A stretch of 46,180 nt of DNA from a virus. A program made the translations under genes and the position numbers. This document shows positions 2,053 through 45,767 of the stretch, one piece after another. How positions within the stretch are numbered: the first letter of the stretch is position 1; the number at the start of each line of letters is the position of its first letter. The stretch is from positions 1 through 46,180 of IMG/VR virus record IMGVR_UViG_3300036859_000386, one strand, 5' to 3'. The notes beneath the pieces are model-generated. The model was not told the DNA's origin. It saw only the letters and a program-made list of their open reading frames with translations, and did not search any database.

Positions 2053-2259
2053 ATGCGCCCGTCCGTCCGTGCCCTCCTCGACTACCTCGCGGAGCTGCTC
2101 GTCGCTGACCATATCAAGCGCGAGGCGCCGGAACCGGCCGATTTGACCGATACGCCCAATGGGTGTATAGTGGAACCTCCTGAGAAGAGAGACGACCATG
2201 CTGAAAGCAGCCCTGTACGCCCGCTACTCGACGGACAACCAGCGCCGCACGTCGATTGA
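2053..2259 (+). CDS. Small hypothetical phage protein
   Basis: An ATG directly after the cupin stop opens a 68-codon frame. It begins with an amphipathic ALLDYLAELLVADHIK helix that I recognise as common in small phage hypotheticals. The last third overlaps the integrase start by 62 bases and the integrase promoter lies inside the gene. The natural protein may have been shorter, with its 3' end replaced when the integrase module was joined. The function is unknown. Confidence 0.5.
   Translation: MRPSVRALLDYLAELLVADHIKREAPEPADLTDTPNGCIVEPPEKRDDHAESSPVRPLLDGQPAPHVD
2143..2171 (+). promoter_or_regulatory. Sigma-70-type promoter of the integrase gene
   Basis: TTGACC (2143-2148) and TATAGT (2166-2171) are separated by exactly 17 bases, a near-consensus housekeeping promoter in an otherwise GC-rich context. 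Transcription would start near 2178, 20 bases before the integrase ATG. The integrase could therefore be expressed without the early operon promoter. Confidence 0.8.
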
Positions 2260-3823
2260 CGACCAGATGCGCCAGGGACGCGCGCGCGCCGCGCTCGAGG
2301 CGGTCGGCGTCGACGCCGAGAACCTCTATAGCGACGACGAGACCTCTGGATCCGTGCCGATCGAGAGCCGCCCGGGCAGCTCGAGGCTGATGCGCGACGC
2401 GGCCGCCGGCCGCTTCCAGGTCCTCATCATCGAGGCGCTCGACCGCTTCTCGCGCAACCTGGTCGACCAGGAGCGCATGGTGCGGCGCCTGGAGCACCGC
2501 GGCGTGCGCATCCTCGCCTATGCCGACGGCTACGACTCGAGCCAGGATGGCCGCGAGTTCCTGCGCCAGGTGCGCGGCAGCTTCAACGAGCAGCTGCTGC
2601 GCGACATCGGCAAGAAAACGCACCGCGGCCTCGGCGGCCAGGTCGAGCGCGGCTTCCACGCCGGCGGCCGCTCCTACGGCTACCGCTCGGAGATCGCCGG
2701 CGTCGATGGCAAGGGCGAGCCGATTGGCCACCGCCTGCTCACCGACGAGGACGAGGCCGGGCACGTGCGCTGGATCTTCGCGCGCTACGCCGAGGGCTGG
2801 AGCTGCCAGCGCATCGCGAGCGATCTTAACCGCCGCGGCGTGCCCGCGCCTCGGGGCGGCACGTGGGCGGTGTCGGCGCTCTACGGCTCGCCGGCGAAGG
2901 GCTCGGGCGTCATCAATAACGAGCTCTACATCGGCAATTACGTGTGGAACCGCAGCAAGTGGACGAAGGACCCGGACACCGGCAAGCGCCAGCGCGGCGA
3001 CCGGCCGCGCGAGGAGTGGAAGGTGGTCTCGCGGCCCGAGCTCGCGATCGTCGAGCCCGGGATCTGGCGCCAGGTGCGCGCACGCATGGACCGGCCGCGC
3101 CTCGCCGGCGGCCGCCGCGGCAAGGGCGCGCAGCCGCGCTCGCTTTTCGGCGGCCTGATGACCTGCGGCAAGTGCGGCGGGGCGGTGGTGGCGGTAAACG
3201 AGCGCACGTATGGCTGTGCAGCAAGGAAGGACCGGGGTGTACACGTCTGCACTGGAGTCCTGGTCCACCGTCAGCAGCTCGACGCGCGCCTCCTCAGCCT
3301 AGTGCGCGACGAGCTCCTCTCGCCAGAGGCGATCGCCGCCGTGCAGGCCAATGTCGTCCGGATCCTGGGCGCGACGAAGAAGCAGCGCGACGGCGCCGAG
3401 GCCCGCACGCGATCGCGCCTGGCCGAGCTCGAGCGCGAGATCGGCCACATGGTCGACGCGGTGGCAAGCTTCGGCCCCTCGGAGGCCCTCAAGGCGCGCC
3501 TGCAGGCGGCAGAGAAGGAGCGTGCGGCGCTGGCGGAGTCCAAGGCCCGCGCCCCGGCGCCGGCCGCGATCCCGGGCATCGTGGCGGCCTACAGGCGCAT
3601 GGTGGCCGACCTGCAGAAGGCGCTCGAGCGCGACGTGCTGCGCGCGCGCGACCTGCTGCAGGGCGCCTTGGGCGCGATCAAGCTGGTGCCGGAGGGGAAG
3701 GCGGTGTACGCCGAGATCGAGACAGGCGCCGAACGCCTGCTGATGGCGGCCGGCGCGAATCTGTCTCTGGAAGTGGTTGCGGGGACCTGCTCTGTTACCC
3801 GGAGACGCATCCGGGTCCGGTGA
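2198..3823 (+). CDS. int: Large serine recombinase (phage integrase)
   Basis: The 541-aa product has the layout of a large serine integrase. The N-terminal resolvase domain begins LKAALYARYSTDNQ with the nucleophile at about Ser11, and has the D.FSRN (EALDRFSRNLVDQ) and Q..G.F.E motifs. A recombinase domain follows at roughly residues 150-300. A zinc ribbon at about 322-352 has CGKC, then further cysteines (YGCAARKDRGVHVC). An Ala/Glu-rich coiled coil precedes the C-terminus. Enzymes of this family join attP and attB without high-energy cofactors, which marks the phage as temperate. A weak AGAAGAGAG ribosome site precedes the ATG, and a near-consensus promoter lies at 2143-2171. The attP site should be close, but I could not identify it. 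Confidence 0.95.
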   Translation: MLKAALYARYSTDNQRRTSIDDQMRQGRARAALEAVGVDAENLYSDDETSGSVPIESRPGSSRLMRDAAAGRFQVLIIEALDRFSRNLVDQERMVRRLEHRGVRILAYADGYDSSQDGREFLRQVRGSFNEQLLRDIGKKTHRGLGGQVERGFHAGGRSYGYRSEIAGVDGKGEPIGHRLLTDEDEAGHVRWIFARYAEGWSCQRIASDLNRRGVPAPRGGTWAVSALYGSPAKGSGVINNELYIGNYVWNRSKWTKDPDTGKRQRGDRPREEWKVVSRPELAIVEPGIWRQVRARMDRPRLAGGRRGKGAQPRSLFGGLMTCGKCGGAVVAVNERTYGCAARKDRGVHVCTGVLVHRQQLDARLLSLVRDELLSPEAIAAVQANVVRILGATKKQRDGAEARTRSRLAELEREIGHMVDAVASFGPSEALKARLQAAEKERAALAESKARAPAPAAIPGIVAAYRRMVADLQKALERDVLRARDLLQGALGAIKLVPEGKAVYAEIETGAERLLMAAGANLSLEVVAGTCSVTRRRIRVR

Positions 3824-6758: not shown

Positions 6759-6970
6759 TGTGATGGCGGAACGGGCGATTGCTTCAGGTAAGCGGCGAGC
6801 CCGATGAGCGCATTGACGGCCGCCGCGGTCGCCATCACTTTGAACAGCAGCCCGGGCTCGACCAAGTTGAACTGCTGCGGCGAGATGCCGATGGAGGCGA
6901 GCCCGGTGGTAACCCCACCGGCTGCTCCGCTGATGATCGCGGCTACGCCGCCCTTTTGCCACGTATTCAC
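6755..6970 (-). CDS. Small membrane protein of the lysis cassette (holin-like)
   Basis: The 71-aa product starts VNTWQKGGVAAIISGAAGGV and has two hydrophobic stretches (about 8-28 and 45-61) before AAYLKQSPVP. I recognise this pattern from phage hypotheticals beside endolysins. An AGGAGG ribosome site lies just before the GTG at 6970, which decides the start over the longer open frame. A holin-type role is plausible from topology and position. Confidence 0.7.
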   Translation of the reverse strand: MNTWQKGGVAAIISGAAGGVTTGLASIGISPQQFNLVEPGLLFKVMATAAAVNALIGLAAYLKQSPVPPSQ

Positions 6971-6980
6971 AGAAGCCTCC

Positions 6981-7559
6981 TTATGTGAGCGCCGTTTGCG
7001 CGCGGTGGAGTTGCGCCAGGCGGTCCTCGTAACCGTTGAGCCCACCGTTGATCGCGAGCGTGATGCCCTCGAAGTCCCCCTGGTCGGCCAGGTCATTGAG
7101 ATCGACATACTCCGGCACGCCGTGCTCTTTTGCGCGCGCGGAAAGATTGAGCCCGGCGCCGATCCTCCAGAACCATCCGGCCGACCGGCAGGCGGCCGCG
7201 GGTTGCTCGAGCAGCTCAGGCATCGCGAGGAGATCGAGGCCGAGCGCATCGCCGCACAGGTGATAGTTCTTCCGCCCCGTGATCTGGATGAGGCCGCGCC
7301 CCTTGAAGCGCCGCCCATCGCCGGGTTCGGTGTTGCCCAGGTGCACGTTGCCCTCGTAGGCATCCCCGCTCGCGAGCTCGCGCAGGTAGCGGAAGCACCC
7401 CGACTCATGCGCCACCTGAGCGAGGAAGGCGGACTGCCGTGCAGACGTGTCGATCTCGAACTCGGCCAGCGCGTCGTTCAGCGGCGCGCAGATCGCCTCG
7501 AGCCGCTCCGCCGACGTCGTCTGGCACAGGGATCGCAATTGCTCCAGGGTGAGCGGCAT
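6981..7559 (-). CDS. Glycoside hydrolase family 19 endolysin
   Basis: The 192-aa product is a single GH19 (chitinase-like) domain used as a peptidoglycan hydrolase by many Gram-negative phages. It shows AFLAQVAHESG with the catalytic Glu, then Y.GN..LGNTEPGDG, and the KGRGLIQITGRKNY block. There is no signal peptide or SAR anchor, so release should depend on a holin. The ATG overlaps the stop of the upstream holin-like gene. The domain is full length, with no added cell-wall binding module. Confidence 0.93.
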   Translation of the reverse strand: MPLTLEQLRSLCQTTSAERLEAICAPLNDALAEFEIDTSARQSAFLAQVAHESGCFRYLRELASGDAYEGNVHLGNTEPGDGRRFKGRGLIQITGRKNYHLCGDALGLDLLAMPELLEQPAAACRSAGWFWRIGAGLNLSARAKEHGVPEYVDLNDLADQGDFEGITLAINGGLNGYEDRLAQLHRAQTALT

Positions 7560-7975
7560 CAGCCGACTTGCGCGGCACGGCCGGTGACGCGCGACAGAAG
7601 CGGAGAGAGGAACCGATCCCCGCCGTAGGCCGCCACCACCGCGCCGATGAAGCAGGCCACCTCCGCGATCGCCAGGTAGTACAAGGCGCCGTAATAGGCG
7701 ATGTTGCCGGCCAGCATTCCGAGCACGAGGCCCTGGATGATCTTCAGGCGCCGCTCCGAGATCGCCACCGGATCGCCGCTCTCATCCTTCCACTTCGCCC
7801 ATTCGGGGAGCGAGGAGGCGGCATAGCCGGCAAAGGAGAGGAGCATCACGACCGCCGCCGCCACCCAGAAGTGCAGGCTACCATCGAGCGGCCGCGTTCG
7901 TTGCTCGGCGGCAAGCACTGCGGGCAGCCAGGCGAGCGCCATCAGGCACGCCGCTCGTACCGTCGCAGCGGCCAT
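7559..7975 (-). CDS. Putative holin
   Basis: The 138-aa product has an N-terminal hydrophobic segment that may be a signal, then about three membrane helices (VAAAVVMLLSFAGYAAS, GLVLGMLAGNIAYYGALYYLA and AEVACFIGAVVAAYGG). It ends in the short polar FLSPLLSRVTG seen in phage holin families. It directly precedes and overlaps the endolysin gene, the expected holin position. The next upstream gene also encodes a membrane protein, so the division of labour is uncertain. Confidence 0.7.
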   Translation of the reverse strand: MAAATVRAACLMALAWLPAVLAAEQRTRPLDGSLHFWVAAAVVMLLSFAGYAASSLPEWAKWKDESGDPVAISERRLKIIQGLVLGMLAGNIAYYGALYYLAIAEVACFIGAVVAAYGGDRFLSPLLSRVTGRAAQVG

Positions 7976-8478
7976 TATTGGCCCTTCACGAGCTGATCAC
8001 GGTCGGCGAGGATCTGCCGCTGCAACCGGTTCGTGGGCACCTTCGGATCGAGCAGCATCGCGATCTTGAGGTTGCTCGCGGCGATCCAGGCCGAGAACAT
8101 CACCGCCACCGGCGCCTGCATGGAAAGCGAGGGCACCATGATTACCGCACCGCGGCTCATGAATATGCAATAGCAGACGTAGATCCACACGGCCATCGAG
8201 ATGAGCGCAAGCCAGAAACGCGCCTTCGTCGTGGCGAGCAGCAGGCCCGGCCCCCAGTGCCGGCCGGCCAGCCATTCGGCGAGCGATACAGAGAGGCTCG
8301 CGAGGCCGATCCCGCAGAGCGCGAGACCCCACTGCAAGTTGAGATCCTCTTGGTTCAGCACATTCCACAGACGACCGCCACCAATCCAGCCTGACGTGCC
8401 CCAGCTCAACATCAGCGTGGCCATCAGAAGTTCGACCGGCAGCAAATAACGCGATGCGATCTTCACTTTAGTCTCCAT
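7975..8478 (-). CDS. Four-helix integral membrane protein
   Basis: The 167-aa product has four hydrophobic segments (near residues 10-30, 50-70, 82-105 and 115-135) separated by short charged loops, and a basic C-terminal tail. No family is recognised. The stop overlaps the holin-like ATG (TAATG), and an intrinsic terminator lies just upstream of the gene. It probably belongs to the lysis cassette. Confidence 0.65.
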   Translation of the reverse strand: METKVKIASRYLLPVELLMATLMLSWGTSGWIGGGRLWNVLNQEDLNLQWGLALCGIGLASLSVSLAEWLAGRHWGPGLLLATTKARFWLALISMAVWIYVCYCIFMSRGAVIMVPSLSMQAPVAVMFSAWIAASNLKIAMLLDPKVPTNRLQRQILADRDQLVKGQ

Positions 8479-8511
8479 GCGATCCCGCTCCCCAGCTGGA
8501 TATCCATGTGG

Positions 8512-8540
8512 AAAAGAAAAGGCCCGCTCGAGGCAGGCCT
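8512..8540 (-). terminator. Intrinsic terminator upstream of the lysis cassette
   Basis: On the minus strand AGGCC (8540-8536) pairs with GGCCT (8524-8520), with additional GC pairing in the loop, followed by TTTTCTTTTCC. It lies between the tail-end gene at 8560-8955 and the membrane gene at 7975-8478. The late transcript would need read-through or antitermination, or a lysis promoter, to pass it. Confidence 0.65.
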
Positions 8541-8559
8541 CGTTGGAAAAAGCTGACGG

Positions 8560-8955
8560 CTACAGCATCCGGTGCAGTGCGGCCTTCGCCAGCAAGCGCA
8601 ACACCACGTTTGCCTGCGCCAGCGTCGTGATGTTCGCCGCCCACCAGGTATCGAATGTCGCATTGTCCATTGCCTTCAGGCTCGCGAGCGTCTGCCCGCC
8701 GAAAGAGAAGCCCGATACGGCATCGTCGAGCGTCGCCGCCTTCGCCAGGGCGACTCGCATCGCGGCATCCGAGACGAGGAAGGCGTCCAGCTCGGCCTGC
8801 GTCGGAGGGGACGCGCCGAGATAGTCGACGAACTTCGCCCCGACCTGCGCCATCCGTCGCGGCTCCGAGCGCGGTGGCGGATCGAGCCGGTAGCCACGCG
8901 CATCGGCCGCGGGAGCGCCAGGCGCCGAGTCGGCAACTGAGAGGATGATTGCCAC
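8560..8955 (-). CDS. Hypothetical protein at the end of the tail module
   Basis: The 131-aa product has a disordered proline-rich start, then a helical region with VGAKFVDYLGASPPTQAELDAF. Its end (FDTWWAANITTLAQANVVLRLLAKAAL) I associate with phage hypotheticals near tail fibre genes. It could be a fibre assembly or accessory protein. No catalytic motif is visible. Confidence 0.6.
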   Translation of the reverse strand: MAIILSVADSAPGAPAADARGYRLDPPPRSEPRRMAQVGAKFVDYLGASPPTQAELDAFLVSDAAMRVALAKAATLDDAVSGFSFGGQTLASLKAMDNATFDTWWAANITTLAQANVVLRLLAKAALHRML

Positions 8956-8963
8956 GCTCTAAC

Positions 8964-9152
8964 TCAATGAATTTTCACTTCACCGAGCGCCGCGCGCAAC
9001 AGTTGCACGGCCACCTGAAAATCGAGATCGATCTCAAAGAATCCTCCTGACGTGATCGTGTGAACGAACACCTTGCCTTCGTGCAGCTTGATGCAGGTGA
9101 TCTTGCTAAGGAGCATCGCGATGCTGCCGTCGAACTCGATAAGCTTATCCAT
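8964..9152 (-). CDS. Small hypothetical protein
   Basis: The 62-aa product (MDKLIEFDGSIAMLLSKI... ) is preceded by a strong AGGAGGGG ribosome site, which supports translation and the start. It looks like a small alternating beta protein. Its upstream flank is the MITE insertion at 9180-9336, so its original leader may have been changed. Confidence 0.65.
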   Translation of the reverse strand: MDKLIEFDGSIAMLLSKITCIKLHEGKVFVHTITSGGFFEIDLDFQVAVQLLRAALGEVKIH

Positions 9153-9179
9153 GCTCCCCTCCTAGGGAATGTTCCTAAC

Positions 9180-9336
9180 GAGGCTGTAGAAAAAGTCCGA
9201 AAACGGTCAATCTCGACCGACCGCCGAAACACTCGCGTCTTTGTTGGTCACTTCGAGTATTGCCGCTGTCGGACCCGAGGAGGCGCGCTACGAGGGGATC
9301 GCAGCTTGGTTGAGGCGGGACTTTTTCTACAGCCTC
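9180..9336. mobile_element. 157-bp MITE with 19-bp perfect terminal inverted repeats
   Basis: GAGGCTGTAGAAAAAGTCC (9180-9198) is the exact reverse complement of 9318-9336. The 157-bp unit encodes no transposase. It is flanked by a 3-bp direct repeat AAC (9177-9179 and 9337-9339), a candidate target duplication. The ends resemble those of IS1182- or IS5-like elements, from memory only. On the minus strand, reading across it removes a tiny frame that begins at 9375 after a strong GGAGGAG site. Confidence 0.8.
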
Positions 9337-9449
9337 AACGAGGACAATAAGCCTACGGAAGCGGTTAGTCCACATCGTCCACTCCTCCGGTCGACGTCGC
9401 GGGTCGGCACGGTCTTCGGGACTCCGAATTTCATTTCCACGATGCGCTC

Positions 9450-10484
9450 CTAGAACAGACTTTGATAGGTGATGATGATGACGCCCTGTTTTCCGGCGCC
9501 ACTCGCGCCCCCGCTTGTGTTCTGGCTCGGTGGGGGTGCTTCTAATACGTTTCCGCCGCCTGCGCCGCCTCCACCTCCCGCTCCATAAAGACCTCCCGCT
9601 CCCCCGGCGCGGCCATTCTCCTCAGCAACTGCACCACCAGCACCACTACCACCACCACCTGCTCCCACACCGCCGCCCAACTCCGTACCCGCAGCACCAA
9701 CATTGCCTACGGTTCCTGCTCCTACGCTGGCACCTCCTACACCTCCAACACTGGGATCGCCTTGTCCACCACCGCCAGAATTGCTGCCACTAGCCGCACC
9801 TCCAGCGACTCCAGCAGCAGTAGGACCAGCCGCACCTCCGCCTCCCCCACCAGCGCCGTTGCCGGCAGAGCCGGGACCACCAGCACCGCCATCACCACCC
9901 GACTTCGCGTTGCCAGAAGGCGTACAGGAAGCCGCAGCACCTCCTGTTGATCCGGATGCGCCCTTGGCGACCACACTGCTCGTATTAAAAGTTGTATCAC
10001 CACCTATCCCGCCTATGACGTACGGAATGCTTCCTGCACCAGCAGGGTCGAAGTTGCTGAGGAAGGTATAAGCGCCGCCACCCCCGCCCGCGCCGCCCGC
10101 GCCCGTGCGGTGCGGGTTATTCCCGCCAGTACCGCCGTCTCCACCACTGGCCCCGCCGCCAATTGCCTCGATCTTGTTGTTGTTCTTGTTGAAATCTGCC
10201 GGCACTGTCCACGACGTGCCGACCGTGAGCACAATGATGACCTGGTGCGGGTTGCCGGCGATCGCCGCCACTGACACCAGCGGCACCGTGCCAAGGATGA
10301 GAACCCGCTTGACGATGTCGTTGACCGTCACCGGCTCCCACCTCTCCATCGCTGCATACGAGTAGTCCGGCGGGAAGGCCGCCGCGACGCACAGCCCCAC
10401 GATTGACACCCACGGTTTACGGTCGCGGAACGTCGCCGCCGCCAATACCCGCTGTAGCAGGGCGAGCTTTTTACCTTTTCTCAT
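9450..10484 (-). CDS. Glycine-rich tail tip adhesin
   Basis: The 344-aa product has a short N-terminal part, a beta-rich link (VLTVGTSWTVPADFNKNNNKIEAIGGG) and about 200 residues dominated by Gly, Ala and Ser with GGGG runs. It closes with GVIIITYQSLF. This composition matches phage receptor-binding proteins built of polyglycine helices, such as T-even gp38 adhesins, and the closing strand is common to them. The ATG at 10484 overlaps the upstream stop. It probably tips the fibre encoded by the two preceding genes. Confidence 0.7.
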   Translation of the reverse strand: MRKGKKLALLQRVLAAATFRDRKPWVSIVGLCVAAAFPPDYSYAAMERWEPVTVNDIVKRVLILGTVPLVSVAAIAGNPHQVIIVLTVGTSWTVPADFNKNNNKIEAIGGGASGGDGGTGGNNPHRTGAGGAGGGGGAYTFLSNFDPAGAGSIPYVIGGIGGDTTFNTSSVVAKGASGSTGGAAASCTPSGNAKSGGDGGAGGPGSAGNGAGGGGGGAAGPTAAGVAGGAASGSNSGGGGQGDPSVGGVGGASVGAGTVGNVGAAGTELGGGVGAGGGGSGAGGAVAEENGRAGGAGGLYGAGGGGGAGGGNVLEAPPPSQNTSGGASGAGKQGVIIITYQSLF

Positions 10485-11110
10485 CGCACGTCGAGCAGCG
10501 GCGCAGGCGGCCCGTAGAAGTTCGTGCCGTCGCAGATGAACGTCAGAATGTCGCGCTTGGTCGCGCCGGTAGACAAGACCGGCGGCGTGGCGCCGGGCCA
10601 TTTGAATACCGCATTCCACGTTGTGATCGTGCGGCTGCCGGTGCCATCCTGTATCAGGTGGAGGATGTATGTGCCTTTCTTCGGGTTCGTCGGAGCCGCC
10701 ATCGTGTGCCCGGCCTGGTTCAAAGTGATGCTGGCAATGCCGCCGCTATCGCAGTTCCAGTTGATCGTGGCGGCCTGCGCCAGCGTCTGGTCGGTGTTCG
10801 CCGGGTTGGTGTGCACCTTGTTGGTGAGCGTCTCGGCGCCGGCGAGCGTCGCCAGGCCGCCCAGCGTCGCGCGCGCCGTCGCCCCATCCACGTTGTCGAG
10901 CAGCGTCTTGATGAAGGTCGAGACGCCGAGCGTCGAGAGCGCCGCCGAGGCATCAGCATCATCGAGCAGCGTGGCGATGAAGGTCGAGACATGCGCGATG
11001 ACCTGGTTGAACTTCTGCTCCAGGTCGAGCAGATCCGGCCGCGCCGAGAGCGGACTATCGGCGTCGCTGTCGGTGTCGGTGGTGTCTACTGCTACGGTTG
11101 GCCAGGTCAT
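10481..11110 (-). CDS. Tail fibre-like protein
   Basis: The 209-aa product has an N-terminal Asp/Thr-rich region, a helical repeat (VSTFIATLLDDADASAALSTLG then VSTFIKTLLDNVDGATARATLG), and a beta-rich C-terminal domain ending DILTFICDGTNFYGPP. I recognise that ending from phage side-fibre and appendage proteins. The duplicated helix is characteristic of fibre shafts. It lies between the J-like tip protein and the glycine-rich adhesin. Confidence 0.7.
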   Translation of the reverse strand: MTWPTVAVDTTDTDSDADSPLSARPDLLDLEQKFNQVIAHVSTFIATLLDDADASAALSTLGVSTFIKTLLDNVDGATARATLGGLATLAGAETLTNKVHTNPANTDQTLAQAATINWNCDSGGIASITLNQAGHTMAAPTNPKKGTYILHLIQDGTGSRTITTWNAVFKWPGATPPVLSTGATKRDILTFICDGTNFYGPPAPLLDVR

Positions 11111-24045: not shown

Positions 24046-25713
24046 TTACCTCTCTGGAAAAGAAACGGCCCTCAAAGGGAGGGCCGTTTTGGTTGCTGGC
24101 TTGGGCTCATCGCCGGGCGGCGCCGCATCGCCGTCGACTTTGGACGTGTTGCCCCCTGTTTTCGTCGCCGCCGGGACGTACACGCTCGGCGAGGTATCGA
24201 ATTCCAGCTTGAGCTGTTCCATCATCTTCAGCTCGCGGTCGCGCTGGCGCAGCATATCTTCGAGGTCCTTGCCATCGCCGTGCGCGGCAATGACGTCGCT
24301 GACAGTGGTGAAGCCGGCCTTGACGGCTTCCTTGAACGATTCGATATCGTTCTTTGGATCCACCCAGCTCCATCCACGCGGCTTGAAAAGCACTGCCTCG
24401 AATTTGCCTGGATTAACGGCGTATTCCGCCAAGCCGATGCCGGGTACCGCCTGCGACAGAACCGCCGCTCGCAGCCATTCCTTGTGCAGCGGAAAACGGA
24501 AAGCCCGGATGAACCATTGCTGCAGCATCTTCCAGAGGTCGCGGTCATCGAGCAGCGCCAGGCGACTCGAGGAATAGTTCGACTGCGCGTAGTCGCGCGA
24601 CAGGCTCTCGTAGGAGACGCCGGCGCCCGCGGCGACCTCGCGCAGCATGTAGCGCATGAACGGGTCGAGCGCTGTGTTCGGGCGGTTCGGCGTGAACGAA
24701 TTCCACTTCTCGCCGGGATTGAGGCGCACCGTCATGCCCGGCTCGGTCACGACCTCCTTCTCGCCCTGCGGAGCGGCCGGGTTCACCGACTGGGCTAGCG
24801 GGTGCTCGGACTCCGGCGTCTCGATCGTGCTGAGATAGTTCGCCGCCCCGCGCGCCGCGATGATCTCGGCTTCGGAGTAGCCGTCCATGTCGTTGAGCTT
24901 GCGCGCGACTGCGTGCAACCAGGGCTCACCGCGCGTCTGCGGCCAGCGTTCCACCAGGCGCAGGTGCATGATCTGATCCGCAGGCACGCGCTCGATCTTC
25001 AGGGTCTCAGCCTGGATGAATCTCTGATCGCCGGGATGGCGGGTCCGGATCCAGTATGCGAGCGGCCGCCCGTATTGGTCGACCTCGACGCCCATCTTGA
25101 TGACTGCGCCGGGCGCCGCGGGTCCGGGCGGCACTGGCGACAGGAACTCATCCGCTATGCGCTCGGCCTCGATCAACTCGAGCGCGAACGGGATCGTGCC
25201 ATCGCCGAGAGGCCGGTAGTGCTTACGCACGAAGACTTCGCCGGCCTCGAATACCTGGCCCATCAGCGCGCGCTCCAGATCCGCGAAGTGCAGCGTGCCG
25301 CCGGTGTGGCAATACTCCGCGCACGCCCAGTCGCGCCAAGCCTCCTCGATGGCGTCGTTGACGTTCTCGCGCAGCTCATCGCGCGTGGACATCACCTGCG
25401 CCTGCATGCCGATGCCGGCGCCGATGACATTGTTCTGCACGATCACCTTCGCGCGTTTGGCGTAAGCCGCATCGCGCACCAGCGCCCGGCTGCGGTTGCG
25501 AAGCTGCGTTAGGCTGCTGACGAGCTCCGAGTCCGCCGAGGTCGTCGAGGTCGCCCAGCCGGCAGTCAGCCGCGAGGCGCGCGCCGCCTGATACATGCGC
25601 GTCTGGAGAGCGCCCTTTGGGCGTCTTGCCAGAGCCGCCTTCGTGCTCCTTGGCGCGCGCGACTGCTTCGGCCGGATCACGCGAGCGAGAGTTTTTCTCA
25701 GGTTCTCAAACAC
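24046..25713 (-). CDS. Portal protein (lambda family)
   Basis: The 555-aa product has the lambda-type portal hallmarks: RNRSRALVRDAAYAKRAK..VQNNVIGAGIGMQ, a G.VFVRKH strand, HLRLVERWPQTRGEPW, and VSYESLSRDYAQSNYSSSRLALLDD-like wing (summarised). It forms the dodecameric ring through which DNA enters the capsid. The GTG at 25713 follows an AGAGG site; the longer open frame runs over the RNA at 25740-25881 and was rejected. The C-terminal tail overlaps a terminator hairpin. Confidence 0.9.
   Translation of the reverse strand: MFENLRKTLARVIRPKQSRAPRSTKAALARRPKGALQTRMYQAARASRLTAGWATSTTSADSELVSSLTQLRNRSRALVRDAAYAKRAKVIVQNNVIGAGIGMQAQVMSTRDELRENVNDAIEEAWRDWACAEYCHTGGTLHFADLERALMGQVFEAGEVFVRKHYRPLGDGTIPFALELIEAERIADEFLSPVPPGPAAPGAVIKMGVEVDQYGRPLAYWIRTRHPGDQRFIQAETLKIERVPADQIMHLRLVERWPQTRGEPWLHAVARKLNDMDGYSEAEIIAARGAANYLSTIETPESEHPLAQSVNPAAPQGEKEVVTEPGMTVRLNPGEKWNSFTPNRPNTALDPFMRYMLREVAAGAGVSYESLSRDYAQSNYSSSRLALLDDRDLWKMLQQWFIRAFRFPLHKEWLRAAVLSQAVPGIGLAEYAVNPGKFEAVLFKPRGWSWVDPKNDIESFKEAVKAGFTTVSDVIAAHGDGKDLEDMLRQRDRELKMMEQLKLEFDTSPSVYVPAATKTGGNTSKVDGDAAPPGDEPKPATKTALPLRAVSFPER
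24054..24088 (-). terminator. Intrinsic terminator overlapping the portal stop
   Basis: AACGGCCCTC (24088-24079 on the minus strand) and GAGGGCCGTT (24073-24064) form a 10-bp stem, followed by TCTTTTCC. It lies in the last codons and stop of the portal gene, just before the protease-capsid gene. Like the other mid-operon terminators it implies antitermination or stepwise attenuation of the late transcript. Confidence 0.75.
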
Positions 25714-25727
25714 GTTTGCGCCTCTTA

Positions 25728-25733
25728 TATAAT
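25728..25733 (+). promoter_or_regulatory. Perfect -10 box of the tRNA-like RNA
   Basis: TATAAT lies at -12 to -7 if transcription starts at 25740, the first paired base of the RNA below. The -35 region (around 25703-25710) has no good match to TTGACA, so activity could be weak or need an activator. In a genome this GC-rich a perfect -10 in this position is unlikely to be chance. Confidence 0.65.
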
Positions 25734-25739
25734 TGCCAC

Positions 25740-25881
25740 TGTGACGTGGCCGAGAGCCGGTCAACGGCGAAACGCCGAAAGGCGATTGGACGAAGGCGGG
25801 ACGGGAGACGAGAGCCCTATCAGCCCGCACCGGCCCGATATTTAAGCTACCGGTGCCGCAGGTTCGAATCCTGCCGTCACA
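25740..25881 (+). ncRNA. tRNA-like structured RNA without an anticodon arm
   Basis: TGTGACG (25740-25746) pairs with CGTCACA (25875-25881) as a 7-bp acceptor-like stem. GCAGG (25858-25862), loop TTCGAAT and CCTGC (25870-25874) make a canonical T-arm directly attached to it. GCCG/CGGC (25749-25752/25765-25768) makes a D-arm with GG in its loop. Where the anticodon arm should be there is CGCC-GAAA-GGCG (25773-25784). The rest is an enlarged variable region with further hairpins, GCGGG/CCCGC (25796-25800/25824-25828) and CACCGG/CCGGTG (25828-25833/25850-25855), which share base 25828. At 142 nt it is too long for a tRNA and encodes no CCA. Five T's follow (25882-25886). A degenerate tRNA with an insertion is the main alternative. 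Confidence 0.65.
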
Positions 25882-25885
25882 TTTT

Positions 25886-26446
25886 TCAAATACGATTGAA
25901 CCTGATGCCCACATTGCGCGGATTCGGCAGACCCGCAGCGATCTTCGCGGCAGCTTCTTCGCTCGCCACCGCGGCGACATAGCGATCGCGAAGCACGAGC
26001 AGGTCCGCAATCGGCGTGCGTTTCAGGCTTCGGCTGCCGATGGCGTATTCCTGCTGATCCTTGGTCGCGCGCCCTTCGAGGACTGCGTTGATCGCGTCGA
26101 GCACCTTACGCGCATGAGATCGGCCGTCATAACCCTGCGCGGCCGTCGCCGGGTTCGCCTTGACCTCGAGCTGGCCATCGCCGAGCGATTGACGAATCGG
26201 CCCGGCTTTCTCGACCCAGCGCGACCAGGTATAGAAGCCAGCCACCCAGCTCGTCGTGATCCCGGCGGCTGCCTGGACGCGATAGTCCGTGCCGGAGGTC
26301 GTAGCCGTGATATCGATCGGCGTCTGCGTGGGCGTGGTGAACCGCGGCACCAGGCGGTACTTGAGCGTCCACCCATCGGCGGGCGGGTACTCGGGAACGC
26401 TGTCCAGAAAATCCAGCGTGTCGCCGGCGATCAGTTCGTCGATCAT
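25886..26446 (-). CDS. Conserved head-module protein of unknown function
   Basis: The 186-aa product starts MIDELIAGDTLDFLDSVPEYPPADGWTLKYRLVPR and ends with a helix and RNVGIRF. I recognise this family as a phage hypothetical placed between terminase and portal genes, where lambda has gpW. Beta strands dominate the first half and an HARKVLDAINAVLEG helix lies in the second. The start overlaps the stop of the repeat protein. A head completion role is inferred only. Confidence 0.65.
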   Translation of the reverse strand: MIDELIAGDTLDFLDSVPEYPPADGWTLKYRLVPRFTTPTQTPIDITATTSGTDYRVQAAAGITTSWVAGFYTWSRWVEKAGPIRQSLGDGQLEVKANPATAAQGYDGRSHARKVLDAINAVLEGRATKDQQEYAIGSRSLKRTPIADLLVLRDRYVAAVASEEAAAKIAAGLPNPRNVGIRFNRI

Positions 26447-36939: not shown

Positions 36940-38238
36940 TCATTCGACCTCCGGACGCACATACACGTAGCCGCGCTGACCCGCTCCGCTTCTCGACTGT
37001 TTGCGCCACCAACCCAACCGCTTCATCACGCGCCCGACGCGCTGCTGGTCGGCGAGCGCCCAGCGTTCCGGCTTCATGCCGAGCGCATCCTCGAGTAGCT
37101 GCCCGGTTGTGGTCTCGGTTTTGCCAACGAGGTAGCTCACGATCTTGTCCTCGATCGCGTCGTAGACGTAGCGGGTTTCTTGCTGGAGCTCGAATAGCTT
37201 GCGCTCGCGAGGACGCACCCACCAGGACAGGCCGCGTTTGTACGAGTGAACGGCTTCCGCCCACAGCTGGTCGCGATCGCGGCGCAGTCCCGCGATGTCG
37301 ATGCTGCCGCAGCGCACCGGCCAGAAGCGCCGGTTGTCGATGTCCTTCAGATATTCTTCCAGGTTCACCGTGCCGACGAAGATGCAGGCGCGCGGCACAT
37401 CGCCGGCGCGCTTGCCGTACCAGGTCCGGTAGCGGTCCTTGTGCGTGGTGAGGAAGCGCTTGACCGTCGATGCTTCCGCGCGTGTCATAGCTTCCAGCTC
37501 CGACCATTCGACGATCCACATGCCCTGGATGATCGCGAACGCGTCCTTGTCCTGCAGGTGCAGGTAGGCATCCGTGAACCACTCGCCTCCGAGCACGCGC
37601 CACACCGTCGATTTGAGGAGGCCCTGCGGCCCCTCGAGGATGGTCATGGTATCGACCTGGCAGCCTGGCTGGAACGCGCGCGCCACGGCGGCCACGAGCG
37701 TCTTCATGCCGACCTTTTCGAGATAGCGGATCGAGTCGCGCGAATTCGCCTCGTCGACCGTCAGTGCATCGTCGACGTTGAGATATTTGAAGAGCCAGCG
37801 CCGCAGCCGGCGCCTGCGATCCCAGCGCAAGCCCTGCAGGTAGGTGAGCAGCTCGTTGTAGCGGTGCCGGTCGGCGACCGCCGCCACCGCGTCCTGGATA
37901 TCGGTCTTCTGCGCCCTGATCCGGTGCTCGACCGAGAGCCACACGCGCAGCCGCGTGTCGTCGATGTCCTCCCATTCGCCCGGATCCGGCACCGTAAAGG
38001 GCGGCGCCTTGCGCTTCACCACGCGCCGGCCGAACTCGTCGAGCGCGATCACCTCGCTCCAGCGCGGATCGTTCTCGAGGATCAGCACCACGTTCTTGAG
38101 CGTTCCGATCGGGTGGCCGGTGCGATCCGTGTCGAACTCCAGCGCCCAGGGCGGCAGCCCCTCGCCCGTCTCCATCTGCTCCTTGAACGCCGCCGCCGCA
38201 GGATCGCGCTCCTTCGCCCCGGATTTCTTGGTGGTCAT
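36940..38238 (-). CDS. VapE-type replication ATPase/helicase
   Basis: The 432-aa product is a virulence-associated-E family protein. LRVWLSVEHRIRAQKTDI leads to a P-loop ATPase with EGPQGLLKST at 202-211. WFTDAYLHLQDKDAF and EWSELEAMTRAEASTVKRFLTTHKDRYRTWYGK segments follow (typical superfamily-3-like core), and then FVGTVNLEEYLKDIDNRRFWPV. These proteins act in phage and satellite replication. The ATG overlaps the upstream stop. Confidence 0.9.
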   Translation of the reverse strand: MTTKKSGAKERDPAAAAFKEQMETGEGLPPWALEFDTDRTGHPIGTLKNVVLILENDPRWSEVIALDEFGRRVVKRKAPPFTVPDPGEWEDIDDTRLRVWLSVEHRIRAQKTDIQDAVAAVADRHRYNELLTYLQGLRWDRRRRLRRWLFKYLNVDDALTVDEANSRDSIRYLEKVGMKTLVAAVARAFQPGCQVDTMTILEGPQGLLKSTVWRVLGGEWFTDAYLHLQDKDAFAIIQGMWIVEWSELEAMTRAEASTVKRFLTTHKDRYRTWYGKRAGDVPRACIFVGTVNLEEYLKDIDNRRFWPVRCGSIDIAGLRRDRDQLWAEAVHSYKRGLSWWVRPRERKLFELQQETRYVYDAIEDKIVSYLVGKTETTTGQLLEDALGMKPERWALADQQRVGRVMKRLGWWRKQSRSGAGQRGYVYVRPEVE

Positions 38239-43035: not shown

Positions 43036-43440
43036 ATGTCACGCGCCACTGCACGCAACCTGAAGTCCGCCGCCGCGGCCACCATCATCCTGCCCAAGCT
43101 CGCCAAGGGCGAGCGCTATGCCGGGATCTTGCTCGACGAGAAGGGCGCGCCGGGCCATCACCTAGTGCTGCTGCCCGGCACGAGTGAGAAGGACCTCAAC
43201 TGGGAGGACGCCAAGGCCTGGGCGAAGAAGCAGGTCGGCGAGTTGCCGACGCGCCGCGAGCAATCGCTGCTGATGGCGAACGCCAAGCAGCACATCGAGG
43301 GCCGCTGGCACTGGTCGAGCGAGCAGAACGCCGGCGTCTCTGCCTACGCTTGGTGTCAGAGTTTCGACGACGGCAGCCAGAGCAGCTTCCTCAAGGATAG
43401 CAAGCTCAGGGCCCGTGCGGTCCGCAGAGTGCCGATTTAA
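43036..43440 (+). CDS. DGR target protein 2
   Basis: The 134-aa product shares the target layout with protein 1: HHLVLLPGTSEKDLNWEDAKAWAKKQVGELPTR, WHWSSEQNAG, then variable residues 97-132 and the end KLRARAVRRVPI. The N-terminal ~40 residues are unlike the other targets. It is a paralogue that probably arose by duplication of the cassette. Confidence 0.88.
   Translation: MSRATARNLKSAAAATIILPKLAKGERYAGILLDEKGAPGHHLVLLPGTSEKDLNWEDAKAWAKKQVGELPTRREQSLLMANAKQHIEGRWHWSSEQNAGVSAYAWCQSFDDGSQSSFLKDSKLRARAVRRVPI
43323..43428 (+). repeat. DGR variable repeat VR2
   Basis: The gap-free alignment to the template shows 12 differences, all at template adenines. A G replaces the final T just after the homology. 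Codons 15, 16, 18, 20 to 23 and 26 of the repeat are most changed. Confidence 0.93.
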
Positions 43441-43473
43441 CCATTCAGCCATTCACCGAGAGGATTTTCACGC

Positions 43474-43965
43474 ATGGAAAACGAACTCAGCGCCGAGCAT
43501 CTGCGCCAGGAAGTCACGGTCACATTGCCGCTCGGCGCGGTGCTGCGGCTCGGCAATGGCGGCGAGCCCTTGGAGCGCGAGGCCCTGGGGCTGCGCGCGG
43601 CCTTCCAGAGAGACACCAGCCCGGAGATCGGCGAGGCCTACGAGGGCGGCATCTACGCCGGCCTGTCGCTCCACGACGGCCTGCCTGTCGAGCTCGTGCT
43701 TCTGCCGGACGACGAGGAATTGAAGTGGGTCGACGCCGTCGCATGGGGTGAGAAGCAGGGCGGCTCGCTGCCCTCGCGCATCGATCAGCTGGTGCTCCTC
43801 CAAAACCTGAAGAGCGAATTCAAGGAGCGAGCGTATTGGTCGAGCGAGCAGGACGCCGGCGACTCTGCCTTCGCTTGGTATCAGAGTTTCAGCTACGGCG
43901 ACCAGTTCAGCTACCCCAAGGATGGCAAGCTCAGGGCCCGTGCGGTCCGCAGATTGCCCATTTAA
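43474..43965 (+). CDS. DGR target protein 3
   Basis: The 163-aa product has a longer N-terminal region (MENELSAEHLRQEVTVTLPLG..., GIYAGLSLHDGLPVELVLLPDDEELKW) before the target core and the variable segment (about 126-161). The end KLRARAVRRLPI is shared. The extra N-terminal domain may link it to a different partner from targets 1 and 2. Confidence 0.88.
   Translation: MENELSAEHLRQEVTVTLPLGAVLRLGNGGEPLEREALGLRAAFQRDTSPEIGEAYEGGIYAGLSLHDGLPVELVLLPDDEELKWVDAVAWGEKQGGSLPSRIDQLVLLQNLKSEFKERAYWSSEQDAGDSAFAWYQSFSYGDQFSYPKDGKLRARAVRRLPI
43848..43954 (+). repeat. DGR variable repeat VR3
   Basis: It has 13 differences from the template by hand, all at template adenines, and no other mismatch over 107 nt. 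Changes such as AAC to TTC at codon 20 and AAC to GGC at codon 26 need two events in one codon. Confidence 0.93.
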
Positions 43966-43990
43966 CCATTCGCCCATTCGCGAGACTTGA

Positions 43991-44347
43991 TTGAGCCTGC
44001 ATAGCGACACCGAGATCTACCGCGCAGTGGTCGAGCTCGCGAAGTTCGTCGCGCGCGCGGTCGAGAACATGCGCCGCGACATGAAGCCCACGATGGGCAG
44101 GATGCTGCTCGAGGAGTGCGTCTGGATGGGCGTGGTGGTGCGCCGCGTGAACATCGCGATCGACCAGGCCAAGCTGCCGCTCCTCGAGGAGCTGCTCGAG
44201 CAGCTCGAGATCGTGCAGTTCGTGCTGCGCCTAGCGCGCGACTGCCGCTACGTGGCGCCCGCGACCTTCGCCGACTCGGTGCCGCTCACCGCCTCGGTCG
44301 GAAGACAGGCCACTGCCTTGAGGAATTACTTTGCACCCGCGCCGTAA
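43991..44347 (+). CDS. avd: Accessory variability determinant (Avd-like)
   Basis: The 118-aa product is an all-helical protein (SDTEIYRAVVELAKFVARAVENMRRD, EECVWMGVVVRRVNIAI, LLEELLEQLEIVQFVLRLARDCRYV) of the size and pattern of Avd. Avd is a basic four-helix bundle that forms a pentamer and binds the reverse transcriptase and template RNA in known DGRs. The start is TTG at 43991. It sits between the target genes and the template repeat, as expected. Confidence 0.75.
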   Translation: MSLHSDTEIYRAVVELAKFVARAVENMRRDMKPTMGRMLLEECVWMGVVVRRVNIAIDQAKLPLLEELLEQLEIVQFVLRLARDCRYVAPATFADSVPLTASVGRQATALRNYFAPAP

Positions 44348-44565
44348 GCGCCTGTTGCGCGACCGCCATGGCGATCGCGCCCGTGCGCTCTTCAATCTGA
44401 TCGCGCCGCTGCCCGCCACGGGCACCGACATGCGCAGCACGGAGACCGCTGGCCCTCAGTCCCCGCAATGGGATCTGTTCGGCCAGAGCGCGTCCGGCGC
44501 AGTCTCCCCGTCGATCGGCCGGCAGCCAGGCCTTCGGCAGGGCGACGTGGAAGCCGCGATCGACC

Positions 44566-44672
44566 GCAGAACGCCGGCGACTCTGCCTACGCTTGGTATC
44601 AGAATTTCAACAACGGCAACCAGAACAACAACCACAAGGATAACAAGCTCAGGGCCCGTGCGGTCCGCAGAT
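44566..44672 (+). repeat. DGR template repeat (TR)
   Basis: This 107-nt sequence is adenine-rich (33 by hand count) compared with its surroundings. Read in the target frame, its codons are mostly AAC/AAT/AAG. Each VR differs from it only at adenines. It lies between avd and the reverse transcriptase. A GTG at 44658, inside the repeat, may be the start of that gene. Confidence 0.93.
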
Positions 44673-45767
44673 CGAAGCGGCGCGGACTTTTCTTACAGGG
44701 AGCTGCTCGGCGCCTGGCTCGACTGCCGGCGCACCAAGCGCAACACCCACGGCGCGCTCGAGTTCGAGGCCGAGCTCGAGGCGAACCTAGACGAGCTCCA
44801 CGCGGCGCTGGCGGACGGCAGCTATGCGCCCGGGCGCTCGATCTGCTTCGTCATCACGCGGCCGCGGCCGCGCGAGGTGTGGGCGGCGCCGTTCCGCGAT
44901 CGCGTGGTTCACCATCTGCTCTACAATCGCGTCGGGCCGCGCTTCGAGGCCTCGTTCATCGCCGATAGCTGTGCCTGCATCGAAGGGCGCGGCACGCTCT
45001 ACGCCGCGCGCCGCCTCGAGGCAAGAGCGCGCTCGATCACCAAGGCCTGGTCGAGGCCCGCGTACTACCTGAAATGCGATCTCGCCAACTTCTTCGTCGC
45101 GATCGACAAGCGCATCCTCCACGAGCTGCTCGCCGCCAGGATCAGCGAGCCCTGGTGGCTGGATCTCGCCGGGCGCATCCTCTTCCACGATCCGCGCGCC
45201 GACGTCGAGGTGCGCGGCGCGCGCGGCTGTTTCGGCCTGATCCCGCCGCACAAGAGCCTCTTCCACCAGGACGCGCTCCATGGCCTGCCGATCGGCAATC
45301 TGAGCTCACAATTTTTCGCGAACGTCTACCTCGACGTCCTCGATCAGTTCGTCAAACACCGGCTGCACGCGCGCCATTACGTGCGCTACGTCGACGACTT
45401 CGTGCTGCTGCACGAATCGCCGCAGCAGCTCAACGCCTGGCGCGCCGCGATCGAGACCTTCCTCGCCGAGCGCCTCGCCATGCGCCTCAACCCGGCGAAG
45501 ACCATCCTGCAGCCCATCGCGCGCGGCTTCGACTTCGTCGGCCACGCCATCAAGCCCTGGCACCGCCAGATCCGCCGGCGCACCTTTAACGAGGCCCTGA
45601 GCCGAACGGCGGCCGTCGACGCCGACGAGCTCCACCGTACCGCCAACAGCTACTTCGGCCTGCTGCGCCAGGCGACGCATAGCCATCATGATCGCGCGCG
45701 CGTGGCGAACCTCGCGCGCTTCCGAGGTCTAGCCGTCGACCATCGATTGACCAAGGCTTACGCGTGA
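44658..45767 (+). CDS. DGR reverse transcriptase
   Basis: The 369-aa product has the retroelement polymerase motifs. REVWAAPFRDRVVHHLL lies near the start, YYLKCDLANFFVAIDK has a metal-binding Asp, GLPIGNLSSQFFANVYLD is near 209-226, and the catalytic YVDD is at 244-247. RGFDFVGHAIKPW belongs to the thumb. Adenine-specific mutagenic copying of the template repeat is its role in this family. The GTG at 44658 is my choice because FSYRELLGAWLDCRRTKRNTHG should lie near the N-terminus; the longer frame from TTG 44331 runs through TR. The stop overlaps the next GTG. Confidence 0.92.
   Translation: MRSADRSGADFSYRELLGAWLDCRRTKRNTHGALEFEAELEANLDELHAALADGSYAPGRSICFVITRPRPREVWAAPFRDRVVHHLLYNRVGPRFEASFIADSCACIEGRGTLYAARRLEARARSITKAWSRPAYYLKCDLANFFVAIDKRILHELLAARISEPWWLDLAGRILFHDPRADVEVRGARGCFGLIPPHKSLFHQDALHGLPIGNLSSQFFANVYLDVLDQFVKHRLHARHYVRYVDDFVLLHESPQQLNAWRAAIETFLAERLAMRLNPAKTILQPIARGFDFVGHAIKPWHRQIRRRTFNEALSRTAAVDADELHRTANSYFGLLRQATHSHHDRARVANLARFRGLAVDHRLTKAYA

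Follow-up and report, generated by a model that had tools for sequence, protein, structure and literature searches.

A tRNA-like RNA element without an anticodon arm, apparently inserted beside the portal gene of a phage

In the window, i.e., the whole 46,180-nt stretch of phage DNA analyzed here (IMG/VR record IMGVR_UViG_3300036859_000386), a 142-nt plus-strand element was found whose tRNA likeness is limited to the acceptor/T half. Gene order in related contigs indicates that the element is an insertion at a gene junction, a point that was not part of the original prediction and is new here. Tentatively, and with somewhat less than even confidence, we regard it as an RNA cassette acquired by the phage, which mimics a tRNA in its acceptor/T half and may offer host tRNA-binding factors a decoy or scaffold.

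Layout and folding of the element

The original prediction had described a 142-nt plus-strand layout with an acceptor-like stem, a directly joined T-arm and a GAAA-capped hairpin, running opposite to the flanking leftward genes, with TATAAT at -12 to -7 and TTTTT right behind the element. All of these are present in the sequence, and the features are as follows.

25740 to 25881, plus strand: tRNA-like RNA element, 142 nt (sequence, folding and chance control)
25740 to 25746, plus strand: 5' strand of the acceptor-like stem, TGTGACG (7/7 pairs with 25875 to 25881)
25875 to 25881, plus strand: 3' strand of the acceptor-like stem, CGTCACA, with no CCA encoded after it (sequence)
25858 to 25874, plus strand: T-arm GCAGG-TTCGAAT-CCTGC, contiguous with the acceptor strand (5/5 pairs, T-loop consensus)
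25749 to 25768, plus strand: possible compact D-arm (GCCG/CGGC), competing with a favoured stem at 25747 to 25763
25773 to 25784, plus strand: CGCC-GAAA-GGCG hairpin at the anticodon-arm site (pair probability about 0.64)
25796 to 25828, plus strand: loosely structured inner region GCGGG...CCCGC (pair probability about 0.3)
25827 to 25856, plus strand: hairpin GCACCGG...CCGGTGC just 5' of the T-arm, at the place of a long variable arm (sequence and folding)
25728 to 25733, plus strand: TATAAT, -10-like, at -12 to -7 of the element (sequence)
25882 to 25886, plus strand: TTTTT, immediately 3' of the element (sequence)

All 12 pairs of the acceptor stem and T-arm are intact, the discriminator position is T, and the hairpin just before the T-arm, within the long inner region, has 7 bp. 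Folding of the element gave pair probabilities of 0.93-1.0 for the acceptor stem (0.54 for its outermost U-A pair), 0.96-0.98 for the T-arm and about 0.54 for the hairpin preceding the T-arm. The predicted D-arm is permitted by the sequence but disfavoured by folding: the compact form had an ensemble probability of 0.00 and lay 4.8 kcal/mol above the minimum-energy fold, whereas the competing stem TGGCCG/CGGTCA reached a probability of 0.59-0.74. Tertiary contacts could shift this preference. The fold of the whole element beats shuffled sequences only modestly (z = -1.93; 6 of 200 shuffles were equally good).

The combination of acceptor stem and T-arm exceeds chance. A descriptor demanding a perfect T-arm, a TTCRA loop and, at 50-170 nt upstream, 7/7 acceptor pairs matched the window once, namely at the element, and matched 300 shuffled windows three times (13.85 Mb, both strands), which puts the chance rate near 0.01 per window. 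No match was obtained when 278 source sequences were reversed. Moreover, TATAAT occurs three times on both strands of the 46-kb window (two on the plus strand, one on the minus strand) and TTTTT 14 times on the plus strand, so that their presence at the two ends of the element is unlikely to be due to chance. Simple scans around the element found neither a -35 box nor a standard intrinsic terminator, so that the putative promoter and terminator consist of the -10 match and the T-run only. The earlier claim that perfect promoter spacing marks a dedicated transcript which needs no RNase P at its 5' end is accordingly a weak one, given that the start base would be U and that a -35 box is missing.

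Insertion at the portal gene junction

The element is flanked by the portal gene and the gene upstream of it, and the features of this region are listed below.

24046 to 25713, minus strand: portal protein gene with GTG start (PF05136; start aligned in relatives)
25886 to 26446, minus strand: gene upstream of the portal gene, without Pfam match (Pfam search, relatives)
25706 to 25718, plus strand: left copy of a 13-bp direct repeat (TCAAACACGTTTG), 11/13 identical to 25886 to 25898
25886 to 25898, plus strand: right copy of the 13-bp direct repeat (TCAAATACGATTG), 11/13 identical to 25706 to 25718
25719 to 25885, plus strand: inserted segment of 167 bp between the repeats, comprising -10 region, RNA and four T (absent from relatives)

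In the window the two flanking genes are separated by a gap of 172 bp. Among viral contigs, 80 portal relatives were kept; in 57 of them the retrieved stretch also contained a match to the upstream gene. Alignments extending to residue 187 of the upstream gene product and starting at residue 1 of the portal protein were obtained in 12. The flanking genes overlap or abut in all 12, with an 8-nt overlap in eight loci and a distance of 2 nt in four; L003, L005 and L009 are among the loci where the stop codon falls within the GTGTTTRAG of the portal start. Each side of the insertion in the window has its own copy of this junction in the form of the 13-bp direct repeat. The gene overlap thus seems to have been duplicated by the insertion, which leaves both flanking genes intact. 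Random 13-mer pairs at the same spacing reached 11 identities in 229 of 200,000 trials; because the reading frames fix part of the match, the repeat is supportive of transposition and not proof of it. Inverted ends of the inserted segment were not seen.

The added segment corresponds almost exactly to the -10 region, the RNA and the T-run, and for this reason the term 'self-contained' used in the original prediction is supported. The element is still best described as a self-contained tRNA-like RNA that lacks an anticodon arm; the D-arm and the inference from promoter spacing are the weak parts of the original prediction.

An inverted repeat, TCAGGTTC/GAACCTGA, flanks the insertion at 25698-25705 and 25898-25905 of the window. 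The same inverted repeat brackets the gene junction in L003 and L005, which places the insertion in the loop of a possible hairpin. The site beside the portal gene also brings to mind packaging RNA, such as the pRNA of phi29.

Elsewhere in the record, a diversity-generating retroelement was recognized at 43300-45767, with three copies of a 143-nt repeat (43312, 43837 and 44555), a bAvd-like gene (43991-44347), a reverse transcriptase (44331-45767) and an RT-15 RNA (44346-44566); in the third repeat copy, A is the commonest base at mismatches (18/42 and 19/43). Judging by its gene content, the phage looks temperate, with genes coding for an integrase or DNA-invertase-like protein (2198-3823; PHROG 95 and 125), a DUF5131 protein (706-1680) and a VapE-like protein (36940-38238).

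Limits of the tRNA likeness and search for related elements

What the element shares with canonical tRNA (RF00005) is an acceptor stem of 7 bp that continues into a T-arm bearing the T-loop consensus; it differs from canonical tRNA by its length of 142 nt and by the lack of an anticodon arm with a 7-nt loop. The tRNA and Rfam models proposed as a check gave no hit over cut-off at the element: RF00005 scored 16.3 bits against a cut-off of 29, and the tRNA-Sec model RF01852 scored 10.5 bits, on the T-arm only, against a cut-off of 47. With default settings, ARAGORN called no tRNA in the window. The longest exact match of the inner 111 nt to 744 phage and cellular tRNAs was 10 nt, which is no better than that of shuffles (median 11 nt) or random segments of the window.

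Homologues of the element were sought in several ways, in collections that may lack the records nearest to that of the window. BLAST against phage and plasmid records matched only the T-arm region, among the matches listed; scans of viral contigs by pattern and by portal gave no demonstrable homologue among the matches listed, and neither did a pattern scan of genome contigs. A pattern of T-arm plus acceptor had no match in viral contigs. A D-arm pattern had 12, none of which was called a tRNA by ARAGORN, and all look like coding coincidences. Furthermore, a model built from the window element alone (R1), which scores the element itself at 183 bits, found no match in 30 relative records at E up to 10, an empty output that carries no weight. 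In 754 genomes of two classes the same model matched 13 of 385 and 4 of 369, the best scores of 34-39 bits being within the range of ordinary tRNAs. Fourteen genome matches became loci: ten have an ordinary tRNA at the place according to ARAGORN, and the other four are short, the position filter not covering the match. No RNA of this layout was described in the literature searched by titles and abstract openings, a coverage that largely excludes subscription journals.

Two candidate families were tried and rejected. The first was defined by AGCCCTATC: in L190 and L214 this 9-mer precedes a T-arm by a comparable distance, L214 having been picked by that very pattern. The pattern is unspecific, many of its matches being ordinary tRNAs or coding DNA, and R1 fails as support for the family, as ordinary-tRNA loci reach 32 bits and L190 31.7. 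The second was a tRNA-Ser with a 32-nt D-loop insertion, as TGGACGAAGGCGGG equals the tRNA-Ser D-arm region in L296 and L299, and 13 of its 14 nt are present in L294. This reading was dropped, the loci having been chosen by a 12-mer of the element, while 744 independent tRNAs matched over at most 10 nt against the shuffle median of 11. A pattern for such D-loop insertions in Ser-tRNA gave 55 stretches, none of that kind except the start of a tandem tRNA-Ser in L345. Additionally, TGGCCGAGAGCCGG is common to the element and L303, but in L303 it stands in a different order and beside other T-arms.

Irregular tRNA-like elements occur elsewhere. Run on the 278 sources, a set biased towards tRNA arrays, the descriptor returned 33 rows (31 distinct T-arms, window included) that are not standard tRNAs by ARAGORN, some of which look like intron-bearing or missed tRNAs. 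A relaxed descriptor had five matches in the 80 portal relatives, of which L066 alone was judged convincing; the other four have weakly paired arms and no tRNA-like body. In L066, whose portal protein is 52% identical, a 72-nt tRNA-like element (2479-2550, plus strand) follows a long ORF (31-2163) and has a hairpin at the anticodon-arm place and GCCA behind the acceptor. The 50.9-kb phage contig L214 carries a group of irregular tRNA-like elements at 6836-10608 (minus strand). Among them are anticodon arms with short loops, one of which is GCAA-capped, and D-loops or anticodon regions that bear insertions. ARAGORN found no standard tRNA in this 10.7-kb locus, and the tRNA model marked only five places in the whole record, two of them over cut-off. 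The elements of L066 and L214 resemble that of the window in layout only, not in sequence. Apparent hairpin or long D-loop insertions were also seen in tRNA-like stretches of the phage contigs L166 (2056-2150) and L212 (5556-5693).

Possible roles of the element

The acceptor/T half, the direct repeat and the insertion itself are all observed. Starting from these, we propose that the phage acquired a 'moron'-like stand-alone RNA gene, a cassette of some 167 bp, at the junction of the portal gene with the gene upstream of it. That irregular tRNA-like elements with unusual anticodon arms are carried by other phage contigs (L214, L066) counts in favour of this proposal. The element would be transcribed from the -10 sequence into an RNA that keeps the acceptor/T half and, since the anticodon arm has given way to hairpins and a purine-rich stretch, cannot decode. 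Host factors reading the elbow and acceptor end would then take this RNA for a tRNA and bind it, candidates being nucleases and modification, processing or CCA-adding enzymes, and the RNA would serve as their decoy or scaffold. A CCA could be added to its 3' end. E. coli tRNA-Leu variants without anticodon arm and variable arm are reported to be still chargeable (PMC9976931), and Cas12a3 to cut tRNA tails even when the tRNA loops are removed (PMC12851939), so that in principle the RNA could be charged or act as a decoy. tRNAs are described as targets of bacterial defences and phage tRNAs as aids to evasion (PMC13096335, PMC11555353). Against a decoy, anticodon nucleases would hardly be fooled by an RNA without an anticodon loop. 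The failure to find a homologue in the collections searched, the missing -35 box and standard terminator, the T at the discriminator position, the unencoded CCA and the doubtful D-arm likewise speak against the proposal. The defence-evading phage tRNAs, likewise tRNA-like genes carried by phages and in their counter-defence role a likeness to what is proposed here, keep their anticodon (PMC10264068, PMC11555353), whereas the window element cannot decode.

Next after the decoy or scaffold reading, the main rival is a rearranged or degenerate, non-functional tRNA gene picked up by the phage, with acceptor and T-arm as its remnant, which we consider possible yet doubtful. It would account for the element being a singleton among everything searched (phage and plasmid records, viral contigs, relatives and 754 genomes), for the missing anticodon and doubtful D-arm, and for the plentiful irregular tRNA-like elements in phage contigs. 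Random decay would not, however, favour perfect acceptor and T-arm pairing without a standard anticodon arm; moreover, the inner region bears no tRNA trace, and 142 nt is long for simple decay. As outlined in PMC7609411, the irregular allo-tRNA-like genes from soil metagenomes (Mukai et al. 2017) have extra loops or broken stems like the element, some are unused in translation, and links to mobile elements have been proposed. They are nearest in spirit to the element, although allo-tRNAs have 8/4 or 9/3 acceptor/T pairs and an anticodon, in contrast to 7/5 pairs and no anticodon arm here.

It seems improbable that the element belongs to a dispersed class of non-decoding mimics, in which an acceptor/T half on an unrelated body would move between phages as a promoter-RNA-terminator unit and of which L066 and L214 would be members by layout. 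Such mimics might act against host tRNA-targeting defences or recruit tRNA-binding enzymes.

Quite improbable, too, is a role on the minus strand, be it in supplying the portal mRNA with a leader, structure and ribosome-binding site, or with the plus-strand RNA as a perfect antisense to that leader. The AAGAGG before the portal GTG does come from the insert and the minus strand folds about as well as the plus strand (z = -1.59; 14 of 200 shuffles as good), but the plus strand is the one that agrees with the -10, with TTCGAAT as T-loop consensus and with the T-run, and relatives manage without such a leader.

A working tRNA gene with a long intron is very unlikely. The full tRNA fit with an intron, which the original prediction had named as contrary evidence, appears only under the permissive intron option of ARAGORN, uncalibrated here, as a tRNA-Leu(taa) interrupted at position 24 by a 78-nt intron. 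By our reading its anticodon stem has an A-C mismatch, the joined RNA is without the long variable arm typical of tRNA-Leu, and no Rfam intron family matched; a tRNA intron at that place is not known in bacteria.

Least credible of all is a Y RNA of the YrlA type (RF02553) tethering a Ro60 protein: Y RNAs are, according to PMC8394870, non-coding tRNA mimics of similar length (90-150 nt) that do not decode, but the YrlA model matched the T-arm with 10.7 bits where its cut-off is 69, the TROVE domain had no match in the 46-kb record (possibly a fragment), and, while YrlA ends form a basal Ro60-binding stem and its gene stands in an operon with that of Ro60 (PMC7790460), the ends of the window element form the acceptor stem only, without a long basal stem.

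If the decoy or scaffold reading is true, an RNA in which nothing but the elbow and acceptor half of a tRNA is kept would represent a distinct type of response to tRNA-targeting defences or, alternatively, a tool for hijacking tRNA-binding enzymes. As the default tRNA finder misses the element, such genes may be under-annotated in phage genomes. Moreover, the direct repeat would suggest that small RNA cassettes can enter tight gene junctions without harming the genes.
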